From Biomaibacter acetigenes (GTDB lineage: Bacteria; Bacillota; Thermosediminibacteria; Thermosediminibacterales; Tepidanaerobacteraceae), in contig NZ_CP033169.1 of the NCBI RefSeq assembly GCF_003691585.1, positions 1,240,001-1,304,000 on the forward strand: a stretch of DNA of 64,000 nt, written 5' to 3'. The translations under genes and the position numbers were made by a program. The notes under the pieces were generated by a model that saw only the letters and a program-made list of their open reading frames with translations, did not search any database and was not told the DNA's origin. Below, in pieces: positions 39,046-55,572 of the stretch (positions within the stretch are counted from its first letter, which is position 1; each line of letters starts with the position of its first letter).

Positions 39046-40863
39046 AATTTATTTTCCCGGGAAATAGAATTTATCGGCCCGTATTCCGTAAATCCCTTTA
39101 TCAGGGCTGCCTATTCATTAAGAGAAAGTATTTCGGCGTTCTATGAAAAAAATCTTTCCCCAGACCTTTCCTCGCTGCTTGTGGGCATCGTTCTGGGCTT
39201 AAAAGGCAATATTTCAGACCAAACCCTGAGGGCCTTTTCGGATTCGGGTACACTCCATTTGCTAGCCGTGTCCGGTATGAATACTGCCATCATCTATGGG
39301 GTACTTCAGAGTATTTTTGATTTCTTTAATTTTCCCCGCATTTTTTCCTTTTTGGCAGGTTCAGCGGCTATAATATTTTACTCCTTCATGGCAGGCCTAT
39401 CCCCTTCGGTGTCAAGAGCTGCAGTCATGATTGTGGTATTAATGCTGGGCAGGTTGGTAGGAAGGGAAAACGATGCTCTAAACTCCCTCGGCTTTGCGGC
39501 GGTATTGCTGCTTCTAATAAATCCCTTAAACCTTTTTTCCGTCAGTTTTCAGCTTTCCTTTGCCGCCACCCTTGGGATTATCCTTTTTTATAAAACCTTT
39601 CGGGATATTCTTTCGTCCCTTCCGCATTTTCTCAGGGACTCCCTGGCGATAGTAATGTCCGCTCAAATGACGGTATGGCCTTTTGCGGCGTACTATTTTC
39701 ACCGGGTTTCTCTGATAGGTTTCATTTCAAATCTATTTATAGTTCCTGTGGTAAGTCTTGTATTGATAGCCGGCATAATTTCGGGCTTGGTGGGCATCAT
39801 CTTTCCGCCATTGGGAGCGGTGCTTGTTAAAATAGCCGGCCTTCTGCTGACCTTCGCGGAAAGGGCTGCGGTCATAAGTTCCGGGGTTCCTCTGTCAGTC
39901 CTGGTAGTACCAGTATTATCCCCCATTATTATCATTCTGTATTTTATATTGATAGCCATTATTTTTAACATCATCCCGGTTCCTTTCGCTGCGGCACCTC
40001 AAGTAAAAAAAGCTTGTGCAGCAGTGCTGGCAGCGGTGTTTTTTTTACTAATAATCCCCAAAAACTCCGGCCTTGAAGTGACCTTTGTGGATGTAGGCCA
40101 GGGGGATTGCATCTTTATAAGGACGGAAAACGGAGGCACGGTGTTAATAGATGGTGGGGGAACGCCCGCATATTACACCGGGGATTTTGATGTGGGGTCG
40201 GCGATTGTGGAGCCCTTTTTGTACGGCAGGGGTGTTGATCACATCGATGTTATGATTTTCAGCCACTTTGACGATGACCATGCCAGGGGATTATTGACAG
40301 TTTTAAGAGATATGAAGGTAACCACGGTAATTTACGGCAAACCTGCAGGTTCGGACATTTACAAAGACATGCTGGAAATTGCCCAAAGTAAAAAGATAAG
40401 GTTGATTCAGGTAGGCCGCGGCGATAAATTTTATATGGGGGAAACGGTCTTTGAAGTATTGAACCCTTCCCGGGACAGTACTTTAGCTAATGACAATGAC
40501 AATTCCGTGGTATTAAAAATGACATTTGACAACATGAGTTTTTTGTTTACAGGAGACCTTGGGTTTGAAGGCGAGAGGCAGCTTTTAAACTCAGGATTGG
40601 ATCTTGAAGCAGAAGTATTAAAGGCGGGACATCACGGCAGTGCCACATCCACTTCAGGGGAGTTTCTTTCAAGGGTGAATCCCACCTTTGCGGTGATTTC
40701 TGCCGGCAAGGACAACAGCTTTGGCCATCCATCTCCGAAGGTTCTGGACATGTTAAAGCAAAAAGGCATTAAAATTTTTCGCACAGACCTTCAGGGAGCG
40801 GTGACCTTTAAAATACAGAAAAATAATGTTAAAATATTTACATCAATTCCCGGGGAGATGTGA
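39046..40863 (+). pseudogene. comEC: comEC (DNA uptake channel), 5' part missing
   Basis: In frame from just after a TAA at 39043-39045 the sequence reads FSREIEFIGPYSVNPFIRAAYSLRESISAFY, which is ComEC-like, and continues into the competence domain (HLLAVSGMNTAIIYG, multiple membrane spans) and the C-terminal metallo-beta-lactamase domain (VDVGQGDCIFI, FSHFDDDHARG, GHHGSATSTSGEFL). The N-terminal DUF4131 domain and start codon are absent. GTG 39181 could only start a truncated product. The upstream part is presumably at the other end of the prophage. In B. subtilis comEC is also directly upstream of holA. Confidence 0.88.
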
Positions 40864-49075: not shown

Positions 49076-49104
49076 TTGACAAAAAAAATCCGAAGTGATA
49101 TTTT
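49076..49104 (+). promoter_or_regulatory. Heat-shock operon promoter
   Basis: TTGACA (49076-49081), 17-base spacer, TATTTT (49099-49104) preceded by TGA, an extended -10. The CIRCE operator begins 13 bases downstream. Confidence 0.75.
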
Positions 49105-49117
49105 TTTAATTAGAATT

Positions 49118-49144
49118 TTAGCACTCTCGTGTTAAGAGTGCTAA
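49118..49144 (+). promoter_or_regulatory. CIRCE operator (HrcA binding site)
   Basis: TTAGCACTC-N9-GAGTGCTAA, a perfect copy of the CIRCE consensus, in the leader of hrcA. It predicts repression of the whole hrcA-dnaJ operon by HrcA, including the chaperonin. Confidence 0.97.
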
Positions 49145-49161: not shown

Positions 49162-50193
49162 ATGCTGGATGAAAGGAAAATGAAAATACTTTCAGCTATC
49201 ATAGATGACTATATAGCCACGGCCGAACCCATTGGTTCCAGGACCATAGCCCGAAAATATCACATCGGAATTAGCCCGGCCACGATCCGCAACGAAATGG
49301 CGGACCTGGAAGAACTGGGATACCTATCTCAGCCCCATACATCGGCGGGGCGCATACCATCCAATAAGGGATACAGGTTTTATGTGGACTTTCTGATGCC
49401 TTCAAGGAAGCTGGATGAATACGAGCAATCCTTTATAAAGAAGCTTCTCAAAAAGCGTGTCAAAGAACTGGAGGACCTGATCGAAGAGGCGGGAAAGGTC
49501 ATATCCAAACTTACCAGCTATACCGCCATCATTCTGGGGCCCCAGCTTGAATGCAGCAGGTTGAAGCACGTGCAGATAATACGGCTGGAAGAAAAGAAAG
49601 GCCTCATGATCATAGTAACCAATTATGGTACCGTCAGCCATCACATTATAGAGATACCTCAGAATTTGACGGATTCGGATTTGCAGAGAATATCAAATGC
49701 ATTAAACAGCAATCTCGGGGGGAAAGCCCTTGAAGAAATAACTCCAGAAGTTATGAATTCCATAAAAGATGACATGATAGAATATGACAGTGTTTTAAAT
49801 ATACTGCTGGATTTGTTGATGGAAAACCTTGACGACACAAAAGAGAATAGTAAGGTCTACGCCTCGGGAAGTTCCAGGATGCTGGAGTTTCCAGAATTCA
49901 GGGATGTGGAAAGGGCCAGGAATTTTCTATCTCTCCTGGAACAGCATGACCTGATCACAAGGGCTCTCAAGACTGCATGCAAGCCCAACACCATAACAGT
50001 TACCATAGGCAGTGAAAATCCCTGGAGCGAATTTCAAGAACTGAGCATTGTTACCACAGGTTTTTTCGTTGAGGATAAAAACCTGGGCATTTGCGGCATA
50101 ATTGGCCCCACCCGCATGGAATACTCTAAAGTTTTTTCCATACTTGAGAAAGTAACCGACTATCTCAACAAAGCCATTACATCACTATTGTAA
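49162..50193 (+). CDS. hrcA: Heat-inducible transcription repressor
   Basis: 343 residues. The winged helix at 1-80 is clear (ILSAIIDDYIATAEPIGSRTIARKYHIGISPATIRNEMADLEELGYLSQPHTSAGRIP). A GAF-like centre and C-terminal NPWSEFQELSIVTTGFF, GIIGPTRMEYSKVFSILEKV complete the family pattern. ATG 49162 follows AGAGGTGAGAGTTAT. It binds the CIRCE upstream; GroEL classically helps HrcA fold, a job that the group III chaperonin may share. Confidence 0.96.
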   Translation: MLDERKMKILSAIIDDYIATAEPIGSRTIARKYHIGISPATIRNEMADLEELGYLSQPHTSAGRIPSNKGYRFYVDFLMPSRKLDEYEQSFIKKLLKKRVKELEDLIEEAGKVISKLTSYTAIILGPQLECSRLKHVQIIRLEEKKGLMIIVTNYGTVSHHIIEIPQNLTDSDLQRISNALNSNLGGKALEEITPEVMNSIKDDMIEYDSVLNILLDLLMENLDDTKENSKVYASGSSRMLEFPEFRDVERARNFLSLLEQHDLITRALKTACKPNTITVTIGSENPWSEFQELSIVTTGFFVEDKNLGICGIIGPTRMEYSKVFSILEKVTDYLNKAITSLL

Positions 50194-50270
50194 GATACAC
50201 CGGATTTAAACCTCGACCCTATGGGCGGGGTTTTCTTCCGCATTCGTAAATTATTAAGGAGGTTTTGATA

Positions 50271-51858
50271 TTGACATTCAAGGATAACAGCGCCCAGGAA
50301 GTGGATGAAAAACTGGCAGCTCTCATCACCAATTCCAATGCCATAAGAGCCGTCGCATCGGCCGTTGAAGGCACCATCGGTCCCAAAGGTCTGGACATAA
50401 TGCTGGTGGACCGTTTTGGAGAGGTTACCATCACCAACGATGGAGTTACGATTTTAAAGCAGATGGATGTAAACCATCCGGCAGCTAAAATGCTCATCAA
50501 CATCGCAAAAGCCCAGCAGGAAGAGGTAGGAGACGGGACCACCACGGCCACCATTATGGCGGGAACCATGGTTTCCGAAGGCGTGAACCAGATATTGAAG
50601 GGTGTACCTGTGGCCCGGGTCATAGAGGGCGTAAAATACGGGGTAAAAAAAGCCCGGGAGATTCTGAGCGCGAACATCATTCCGGTCAGGGATATAAATG
50701 ACCCGGCACTGAAGAATATAGCCCTCATAGCCGGAAGGGAGCATGAGGACATTGCAGAGCTCGTCACAAAGGCGGCAAAACTTATCGGTGAAGAAAAACT
50801 TAGAGAAAAGAATTTCAAATTAAAGGACATTGTAATGTCCCGGGCGGGAGCAGACAATGAGGTTTTTATGGGCATAATAATTGATAAGGAAAAAATGAAT
50901 AAACAGATGCCCGACGAAATCAACGATGTAAAGGTGCTTTTGATAGATGATGCTCTGGAACCCGAAGAAATTGCCCCAGAAGCCCTCAGGACGGAAGCAG
51001 GATTTACCCGTTATCTGGAACTCAAGCAGGAGTTCAAGGAGAACCTTAAGAAAATAATGGATTTGAATATAAATCTCATACTGGTGGATAAAAATGTAAG
51101 CGATGAGGCCGAGGAACTCCTGACCGATGCAGGCATTATAGTACTGGAAAGGGTATCAAGAAAAGACCTGGAGAGGGTGTCGGAACATACCGGCGCAAGG
51201 ATAATAAAGCGTATGGGCCTTAAAAAGCCGGCACAAGAGATACAAAACTACATAGGCCGGGCCGATAAGGTATATGAAGATGAGAAACTGGAGCAGATAA
51301 GGATAGTGGGAGGCAAGGGCAAACCCATGGCCACCATCCTGGTGGGGGCAGCCACCGAGGAAATAGTCGGCGAAAGGGAACGTATAGCCAGGGATGCCGC
51401 TTCATCCCTGCAAGCTGCCGTGCTTTTCGGCATGGTTCCGGGCGGCGGAGCCGTGGAAATGGCCATATCCCGGGAACTGGAAAAAGAAAAGGATAAAATG
51501 AAGAGCATGGCTTCGTACGGGGTGGAATGCGTATGTGCCGCCCTTAAAAGGCCCCTGGCCCAGATTGTGTATAATGCAGGATTTAACCCCCTGGAAAAGA
51601 TGGAAGAAGTAAATTTCACCCAATCTGAAAAAAAACAGCTTCTCCATCGGAATCAACTGTGAAACCGGAGAAGTGGCGGATATGGTGGAACTCGGGGTGC
51701 TAGACCCTGCCCTGGTAAAGCTGCATGCCATCAAGGCTGCAGGGGAAGTTACCGAAGCTATTCTCAGGATAGATACCATAATCAAGAAGAAGGACGAATC
51801 AGTTCCGAGCAAGCCCGGGGCCGAAACGCCAAATGGCATGGCTGAAATGGATTTTTAA
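50271..51858 (+). CDS. Group III (archaeal-like) chaperonin, frame broken at an A run
   Basis: A thermosome-like Hsp60 of about 528 residues in two frames. N-terminal ATP loop GTIGPKGLD, then [12 protein letters not shown], a lid region without a GroES contact, [20 protein letters not shown], and [15 protein letters not shown] near 390. After eight As (51628-51635) the frame changes; with seven As it continues [47 protein letters not shown], the C-terminal ATP domain. Bacterial group III chaperonins close with a built-in lid and are known from thermophilic clostridia in the dnaK operon, exactly this context. TTG 50271 follows AAGGAGGTTTTGATA. The frameshift removes the ATP-site Asp-containing end unless the run is misread. 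Confidence 0.9.
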
Positions 51859-51892
51859 AACATTTTAAAACAAAAGAGGTGAGGTGATCCAA

Positions 51893-52485
51893 ATGAATTT
51901 AAAGCCCGGGGAAGAAAAGGATAAAGATGTGGAAAACGCCCTGAAAGAAAAAGATGATGGCAGCACGGGTACGGGCGATGAAGAAATAAAAGAAGAAAGT
52001 AACAGCGAGAATGATTTAAAACAAAAACTTGAAACTCTGGAAAAGACCATTGAAGATCAACAAAAGCAAATCGATGAATACAAGAACCGCTGGTATAGAG
52101 CCCAGGCGGATTTCGACAACTTTAGAAAAAGAACTCAAAAAGAAATTCAGGATATTCATCTCTATGCAGGGGAACAGTTGATTAAAGATATCCTTCCCGT
52201 GGTGGACAATTTTGAAAGGGCCATGGACTCCATAGAGGACAGGGAAGGCCCCATTTATAAGGGAATCCAGCTTATTTACCAGCAGCTCAAAAAAGTGCTG
52301 GAAAAATATGATGTAAAAGAAATCGATGCTCAGGGCAAGACCTTTGACCCCAGGTTCCACGAGGCGGTCATGCAGGTGGAAAGCCAGGAATATGAAAATG
52401 ATACCGTAATTGAAGTCTTGCAAAAGGGTTATTTATTCCATACAAAAGTCATAAGACCCAGCATGGTCAAAGTTGCTAAAAATAA
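51893..52485 (+). CDS. grpE: Nucleotide exchange factor GrpE (stop codon lost in this sequence)
   Basis: A coiled coil ([21 protein letters not shown]) leads to the GrpE head domain ([55 protein letters not shown]). In this sequence the frame runs on into dnaK. One more A at 52478-52482 would create TAA at 52483-52485 directly before the dnaK ribosome site, giving a normal GrpE end. ATG 51893 follows GAGGTGAGGTGATCCAA. It releases ADP from DnaK. Confidence 0.88.
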
Positions 52486-52498
52486 CGGAGGTGTTTTT

Positions 52499-54376
52499 AT
52501 GGGTAAAGTAATCGGTATTGATCTTGGTACTACAAACTCAGTAGTTGCATATATGGAAGGAGGCCAGCCTGTAGTTATTCCCAATGCCGAGGGGTCAAGA
52601 CTTACTCCTTCCGCAGTAGCTTTTACAAAGGACGGTGAGCGCCTGGTAGGGCAGCTCGCAAAACGTCAGGCTATCACGAATCCCGAAAGAACCATACTAT
52701 CTATTAAAAGGCACATGGGTACCGACTATAAGGTAAATATAGACGGCAAAGCCTACACTCCTCAGGAAATATCTGCCATGATTTTACAAAAGCTAAAACA
52801 GGATGCGGAAAGTTATCTGGGAGAAAAAATTACCCAGGCGGTAATCACCGTACCCGCGTACTTTACTGACAGCCAGAGGCAGGCCACAAAAGATGCGGGT
52901 AAGATCGCAGGCCTTGAAGTGCTGAGGATCATCAATGAACCTACGGCTTCAGCTCTGGCTTACGGCCTCGATAAAGGGGAAGATCATACCATACTGGTCT
53001 TTGACCTGGGAGGCGGCACTTTCGATGTTTCCATACTGGAACTCGGTGATGGTGTCTTTGAGGTCAAAGCCACCAGCGGAAACAACCGCCTGGGTGGTGA
53101 CGATTTTGACCAGCGCATCATCGATTATGTAGCAAATGAATTTCAGAGAGAACACGGCATAGATTTACGAAAAGACCGCATGGCCCTTCAGAGATTGAAA
53201 GAGGCCGCGGAAAAAGCCAAAATAGAATTGTCCAGCATGGTGACCACCAACATCAATCTTCCCTTTATCACCGCCGATGCCAGCGGTCCCAAGCACCTGG
53301 ACATAACTCTTACCAGGGCTAAATTTGAAGAACTTACGCGAGACCTGGTGGAAGCTACCATGGGACCAACCCAGAGGGCTTTAAGCGATGCCGGGCTCAA
53401 GCCCCAGGACATCGACAAGGTCATACTGGTGGGAGGCTCTACCAGGATTCCTGCAGTGCAGGAAGCCATCAAAAAGTTCATCGGCAAGGAGCCCCATAAA
53501 GGTGTCAACCCGGACGAAGTGGTAGCCATGGGTGCTGCCATCCAGGCAGGAGTACTGGCAGGCGAAGTTCACGATGTGGTGCTTCTGGATGTCACTCCGC
53601 TTTCCCTGGGTATAGAGACCCTGGGGGGCGTGTTTACAAAGCTTATAGAAAGGAATACCACCATACCCACATCCAAGAGCCAGATATTCACGACGGCGGC
53701 CGATGGCCAGACAGCGGTGGATATACATGTGTTACAGGGCGAACGGCCCATGGCAGCCGACAATGTCACCCTGGGCAGATTCCAGCTCACCGGAATTCCT
53801 CCGGCCCCCAGGGGAGTGCCCCGCATCGAGGTAACTTTTGACATCGATGTGAACGGCATAGTCCACGTTTCTGCCAAAGATTTAGGCACCGGCAAGGAGC
53901 AAAAAATTACCATAACTTCATCCACAGGTTTGAAAGAAGAAGAAATACAGAGGATGGTCAAAGACGCCGAAAAATATGCAGAAGAGGACAGGAAGAAAAA
54001 AGAAAAGATTGAAGCAAAGAACCATGCGGATTCCCTCATATACCAGTCCGAAAAGATGCTGGGTGATTTAAAGGATAAAATAAGCCAGGAAGATGTCGAT
54101 AAGGTGAAAAAAGAGATAGAAAATGTCAGGAAGGCTCTGGAATCCGACGATGTTGAAAGGATAAAGAAAGCCACTGATGACCTGACCAAGGTGTTTTACG
54201 ATATTTCTTCAAAACTGTATCAATCAGCAGGCCAGGGAAACCCCGGAGCAGGTCCAAACTTTAACCCCGGAGCGGGAGCGAATCCCTTCGGTGGAGGAGC
54301 GGCCAATGAAAGTAAAAAAGACGAAAAGGTAGTGGATGCGGACTATAAAGTGATGGATGACAATGATAAGAAATAA
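52499..54376 (+). CDS. dnaK: Chaperone DnaK (Hsp70)
   Basis: About 625 residues. [20 protein letters not shown] at the N-terminus, [63 protein letters not shown]-type [13 protein letters not shown], and the substrate-binding [14 protein letters not shown] are all present. The Gly/Asn-rich tail ends with the [13 protein letters not shown] motif. GGAGGTGTTTTTATG is its ribosome site. It folds proteins with DnaJ and GrpE. Confidence 0.97.
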
Positions 54377-54420: not shown

Positions 54421-55572
54421 TTGGCCAAAAGAGACTATTATGAAGTGCTCGGCGTAAGCAAAGACGCATCGGAAGACGATATAAAAAAAGCATATAGAAA
54501 ACTTGCGCGCCAGTACCATCCCGATGTAAACAAAAATGATAAGGATGCTGCAGAAAAATTCAAGGAAATAAACGAGGCCTACGAAGTGCTGAAAGACCCC
54601 GAAAAGCGGGCCCGGTACGACCAGTTCGGCCATGCCGGCGTGGGCCAGGGGAATTTTGACGCCGGCAATTTTGGCGGATTCGGCGATTTTGGTGACTTCG
54701 GCAATTTCGGAGGAGAGTTCTTCGGAGATATTTTTGAAAACTTTTTCGGGGGCGGATTTGGAGGAACAAGGCGGCATGGACCCGTTCGCGGCGCCGATGT
54801 GCTGTATGATATGGAGATTTCTCTGGAAGAGGCTGCTACCGGAATAGAAAAGGAAATCCAGGTGTCGCGCATGGAAAAGTGCGAAAAATGCCATGGCACC
54901 GGAGCAAAACCCGGAACCCATCCCACCACATGCCCGCTATGCGGCGGTACCGGACAGGTAAAAAATGTACAGAATACGGCCTTTGGAAGGTTTGTGAACA
55001 TCACCACCTGCAACAGGTGCGGCGGGCGGGGTACCATCGTGGAGGCCCCATGCCCTAACTGCCATGGCAGTGGTCAGGTGCGGGCCAACCGAAAGATCAA
55101 GGTAAAGGTTCCAGCCGGTGTGGATACAGGTTCACGCCTTCGGATAAGTGGGGAAGGAGAGCCCGGCGAGCGCGGCGGACCTCCGGGAGACCTTTATGTA
55201 GTGATCCGGGTCAAACCCCACAAGCTTTTTACAAGGCATGGAGATGACCTCATATATGAAGCCCATATTTCTTTTGTGCAGGCGGCTCTCGGCGATGAAA
55301 TCGAAATACCTACGCTGGAGGGCAAGATAAAGTTAAAAATACCCGAAGGGACCCAGCCAGGGACAAATTTCCGCCTGAAAGCCAAAGGCATTCCGCATAT
55401 AAAGGGATATGGCAGGGGAGACATGCATGTCAGGGTAAATGTGGTTATACCCGAAAGGTTGAACGAAAAACAAAAGGAAATCCTGAGAAAATTTGCCGAT
55501 ATAAGCGGCGAGGAATTAAAAGGTCCGTCAAAGGGGTTTTTCGGCAAGATGAAAGATGCCTTTGGCGTATAG
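54421..55572 (+). CDS. dnaJ: Chaperone DnaJ
   Basis: 383 residues. J domain with [11 protein letters not shown]; a Gly/Phe-rich region ([17 protein letters not shown]); four CxxCxGxG zinc repeats ([32 protein letters not shown]); then the C-terminal substrate domains. TTG 54421 follows TGGAGTGATGCCGA. It delivers substrates to DnaK and stimulates its ATPase. Confidence 0.97.

Follow-up and report, generated by a model that had tools for sequence, protein, structure and literature searches.

Organization of the hrcA–dnaK locus

The window, by which we mean the whole stretch of 64,000 nucleotides analysed, carries the gene order CIRCE-hrcA-chaperonin-grpE-dnaK-dnaJ-prmA, with all features described here on the + strand. 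The CIRCE operator (TTAGCACTC-N9-GAGTGCTAA; 49118–49144), the predicted HrcA site, is a perfect match with 0 mismatches, against a chance expectation of 0.02 at up to 3 mismatches. Just upstream of it, a consensus scan whose overall yield was not above chance placed a candidate sigma-A-like promoter (TTGACA-17-TATTTT, 49076–49104; 10 of 12 positions matched, with TG ahead of the −10 element). The heat-shock repressor gene hrcA follows at 49162–50193 (Pfam HrcA, E = 1.4 × 10−63), both marks of an HrcA/CIRCE operon, the operator at the promoter and the repressor gene itself, being present.

Downstream of hrcA, the group III chaperonin gene begins at a TTG codon at 50271 that is served by a good ribosome site (AAGGAGG), and it is recorded in two pieces. 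Its open part (50271–51662) holds native residues 1 to ~454 followed by ~9 out-of-frame residues, and the remainder of the C-terminus, which matches the Cpn60 profile and ends in EMDF, lies in another frame at 51637–51858. The initial annotation had given 50271–51858 as the span of the gene; a group III gene does start at the TTG, but its frame ends at 51662, and 51858 is the end expected from the frame of the relatives. The remaining genes are grpE (51893–52484, its stop missing through a one-base deletion near 52477), dnaK (52499–54376) and dnaJ (54421–55572).

The gap between hrcA and the chaperonin gene contains a hairpin with a T-rich tail (50201–50240; fold energy z −1.7). It is also present in the nearest relatives, among which no compensatory pair was found, and it is not obvious in Tepidanaerobacter or Thermosediminibacter; as a guess, it might be a site of mRNA processing or attenuation.

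Assignment of the chaperonin to group III

The chaperonin protein belongs to the Pfam family Cpn60_TCP1. Such membership would also fit a group I protein (GroEL) that has diverged, or an archaeal thermosome acquired recently, as all of these candidates share the Cpn60 family with group III. Among the profile models, those of the thermosome scored best for the window protein, yet far below their cut-offs, as expected for a third chaperonin group, and the closest natural solved chains, both by sequence and by predicted fold, were those of the group III chaperonin of Carboxydothermus hydrogenoformans (5x9u/5x9v). A maximum-likelihood tree of 59 sequences, with group II represented by four haloarchaeal plasmid genes and three solved chains, set all three groups apart, each on its own side of a branch (support for group III 88/96); the window copy fell inside group III, within Thermosediminibacterales, paired with the copy of the same genus (support 100/92). 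The alignment revealed a built-in lid four residues shorter than that of archaeal group II, the absence of the six-residue nucleotide-sensing loop, and R156, the equivalent of the gamma-phosphate arginine Arg155 of the C. hydrogenoformans chaperonin (Ch-CPN), which is invariant across alignment A1. This lid type, the missing sensing loop and Arg155 were described as marks of group III by An et al. 2017 (PMC5635000).

The tree, the lid, the missing sensing loop, the best matches and the conserved bacterial operon all contradict a GroEL or archaeal thermosome, an identity that the tree refutes for the sequences sampled and to which we attach next to no probability. Lying between hrcA and grpE, the gene belongs as an ordinary member to the described group III (thermosome-like) family of archaeal-looking chaperonins, which many Clostridia have within their heat-shock operon; the proposal of the initial annotation that it encodes a lid-carrying group III protein rather than GroEL is thus borne out by the tree, in which the window copy stands with group III and apart from GroEL, by the lid alignment and by the best matches.

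Structural comparison was made with an AlphaFold2 model built on an intact, 96% identical relative, not on the window's own protein (pLDDT 76, pTM 0.71), in which residues 1–89 and 501–528 are of low confidence and helices 236–239 and 242–264 lie at the lid. A structure search with this model returned 5x9v and 5x9u first, archaeal thermosomes next and CCT after these. Ch-CPN (5x9u/5x9v; PMC5635000) shares with the window copy the lid type, the missing sensing loop, the conserved arginine and the location in a dnaK operon, but is only ~46% identical to it, and in the recorded sequence the window copy has a broken frame. The archaeal thermosome (group II) has the built-in lid and the overall fold in common with the window copy and differs in the length of the lid, in the sensing loop and in forming a separate clade. 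GroEL (group I), likewise a Cpn60 protein and, judging from its operator, also CIRCE-controlled in this genome, is without a lid, requires GroES, and has its own clade and its own locus: an intact groES-groEL pair with its own perfect CIRCE was found elsewhere in the genome.

One PDB entry, 9rwq, is named 'Ancestral Group II Chaperonin (ACII)', yet at 582 bits versus 247 for the same-named 9rwp it is far nearer to group III; possibly it is the ACIII structure, mislabelled.

Conservation and distribution of the locus

In ~50 related loci the order lepA-hemW-CIRCE-hrcA-chaperonin-grpE-dnaK-dnaJ-prmA was found as far as the contig reaches and a match was detected, with a perfect CIRCE upstream of hrcA in nearly all of them. 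Together with the perfect CIRCE of the window, this shared order upholds the earlier reading that the gene sits in a CIRCE/HrcA heat-shock operon, after hrcA and before grpE. In five genomes that lack the group III gene, grpE comes next after hrcA, without a chaperonin gene in between. From this direct adjacency the gene is, at the level of gene order, a clean insert that is lost at times, and close relatives that cleanly have or lack it at this position offer a natural comparison for what group III adds. In one of these five, a genome of the same family (L161, G012:C8:83436-84461), the gene has been cleanly lost and hrcA is directly followed by grpE, while other members of that genus have the gene.

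A group III gene was present in 102 of 299 genomes sampled from the same phylum, the named carriers including Pelotomaculum and Propionispora, genera that contain mesophiles. The gene is not rare, and the earlier description of the family as known solely from a few mainly thermophilic Firmicutes is accordingly too narrow. The tie of a group III chaperonin to the DnaK operon, also proposed there, holds and is already published (PMC5635000, PMC5220055): a 2010 account by Techtmann and Robb, cited in both PMC5220055 and PMC12696368, described group III in the dnaK operon, as did a 2017 paper (PMC5635000). The arrangement is not new, and the window gene adds one more copy to a known family.

The group III operon of one metagenome-assembled genome (MAG) labelled Armatimonadetes (L036) is nested among Desulfovirgula-like sequences, a placement that would reflect either mis-binning or transfer. 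Apparent internal stops in other copies were dismissed: those of G198 and G282 fall at the C-terminus and simply close the gene as usual, and the G222 match contained none.

Frame breaks in the chaperonin and grpE genes

The frame break was absent from the initial annotation. The chaperonin frame stops at 51662, 50271–51858 is not one open frame, and a single full-length frame of ~520–530 codons, as in the intact copies, is absent from the recorded sequence. The break falls at a run of eight adenines (A8; 51628–51635, + strand), which is A7 in the same-genus relative and shorter or interrupted elsewhere, and the frame is open in the ~50 relatives examined. Past the A8 run the conserved C-terminus resumes in another frame (Cpn60 profile positions 434–489, E = 8.4 × 10−13), and this segment is also conserved in the same-genus relative. 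That relative, the MAG contig DUMA01000004.1, has the same operon and CIRCE and differs in its intact frame with A7; the two chaperonins are 96% identical in protein and ~86% identical in DNA, a difference which, at the sequence level, indicates that selection acted on the gene until very recently.

A second one-base break sits 850 bases beyond the first. At 52477, in another A run, the window has one base fewer than its relatives, the stop of grpE is lost, and grpE and dnaK are read as one 830-residue frame (51884–54376), leaving 210 residues open upstream of dnaK versus 0–32 in the relatives. A GrpE-DnaK fusion annotated over this span would probably be an artefact.

One-base breaks over ~400 kb of the genome

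The frequency of such breaks was assessed by comparison with the same-genus genome over ~400 kb and 283 matched genes, comprising window positions 39052–64000 and the adjoining G000:C1:1304001-1664000; for window 1–39051, the neighbouring 39 kb of the contig from the same genus gave no long DNA match, and synteny breaks near 39052. Besides the chaperonin gene and grpE, about a dozen of the 283 genes are interrupted internally by a one-base change in this genome, mostly within a homopolymer; the count is rough, because a single relative served to set polarity. Examples, in a numbering that starts at the first position of the window, are A8 versus A7 at 77585 and 347065, T4 versus T5 at 332639, and C5 versus C6 at 350248. 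Searching in the opposite direction yielded 12 cases; the grpE-dnaK fusion itself is among them, and several lie at gene ends or involve neighbours that are fused here. Breaks in this pattern are typical of uncorrected long-read assemblies. One gene carries two one-base breaks within 125 bases.

Origin of the recorded break

The A8 run could in principle act as a functional switch, through slippage of RNA polymerase or of the ribosome or through phase variation, giving both full-length and truncated subunits. A8 runs can slip, and the intact downstream frame would fit such a switch. The run, however, is not conserved, being A7, shorter or interrupted in relatives whose frame is simply open, and comparable breaks occur in unrelated genes. 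A conserved programmed frameshift is ruled out by this lack of conservation, and a switch of any of these kinds is very unlikely; a shade less likely still is the fuller version, in which slippage or phase variation at the A8 run would govern how much full-length and how much truncated subunit is made, and the joined grpE-dnaK frame would be genuine and working.

A true recent mutation would mean that this genome has lost its group III chaperonin while GroEL/GroES remain, with grpE and dnaK read as one frame. The intact groES-groEL pair under its own CIRCE is compatible with such a loss, the same-family relative that is cleanly without the gene in a genus otherwise having it argues that the chaperonin is dispensable, and a further single-contig genome, G040, carries the gene with a break within a TA dinucleotide repeat (L082 2874-2878). 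The conserved C-terminus and the gap between protein and DNA identity nonetheless imply that any loss would be very recent, and the same kind of one-base break in unrelated genes of this genome speaks against it. We consider a true mutation unlikely, though clearly less so than slippage.

The difference between A8 and A7, the open frames in the relatives, the conserved downstream frame and the other one-base breaks make an assembly error the most likely origin of the break, ahead of a true recent mutation in second place and of programmed slippage, which is unlikely. From the sequence comparison it is quite probable that this is an ordinary group III gene in an HrcA-controlled operon, that the recorded break is a one-base homopolymer error of the finished assembly, and that the gene is intact. 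The recorded chaperonin break and the grpE-dnaK fusion should accordingly not be taken to show that the gene is lost or that a new fusion protein exists before a sequence check, and the many one-base breaks call for caution with the gene calls of this record.

Proposed working of the operon

Heat-shock control by HrcA and CIRCE is established in other bacteria. For an intact group III gene in this operon, HrcA bound to the CIRCE beside the promoter would hold transcription down; upon heat shock HrcA would release CIRCE, and the chaperonin would be made together with DnaK, DnaJ and GrpE. By analogy with what was shown for C. hydrogenoformans, the subunits would form a double ring whose built-in lids close on ATP binding, and the chaperonin may fold clients alongside GroEL/GroES. 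DnaK has been proposed to hand clients over directly (PMC5635000, PMC5220055), and the window adds one further copy to a family with a putative DnaK partnership.
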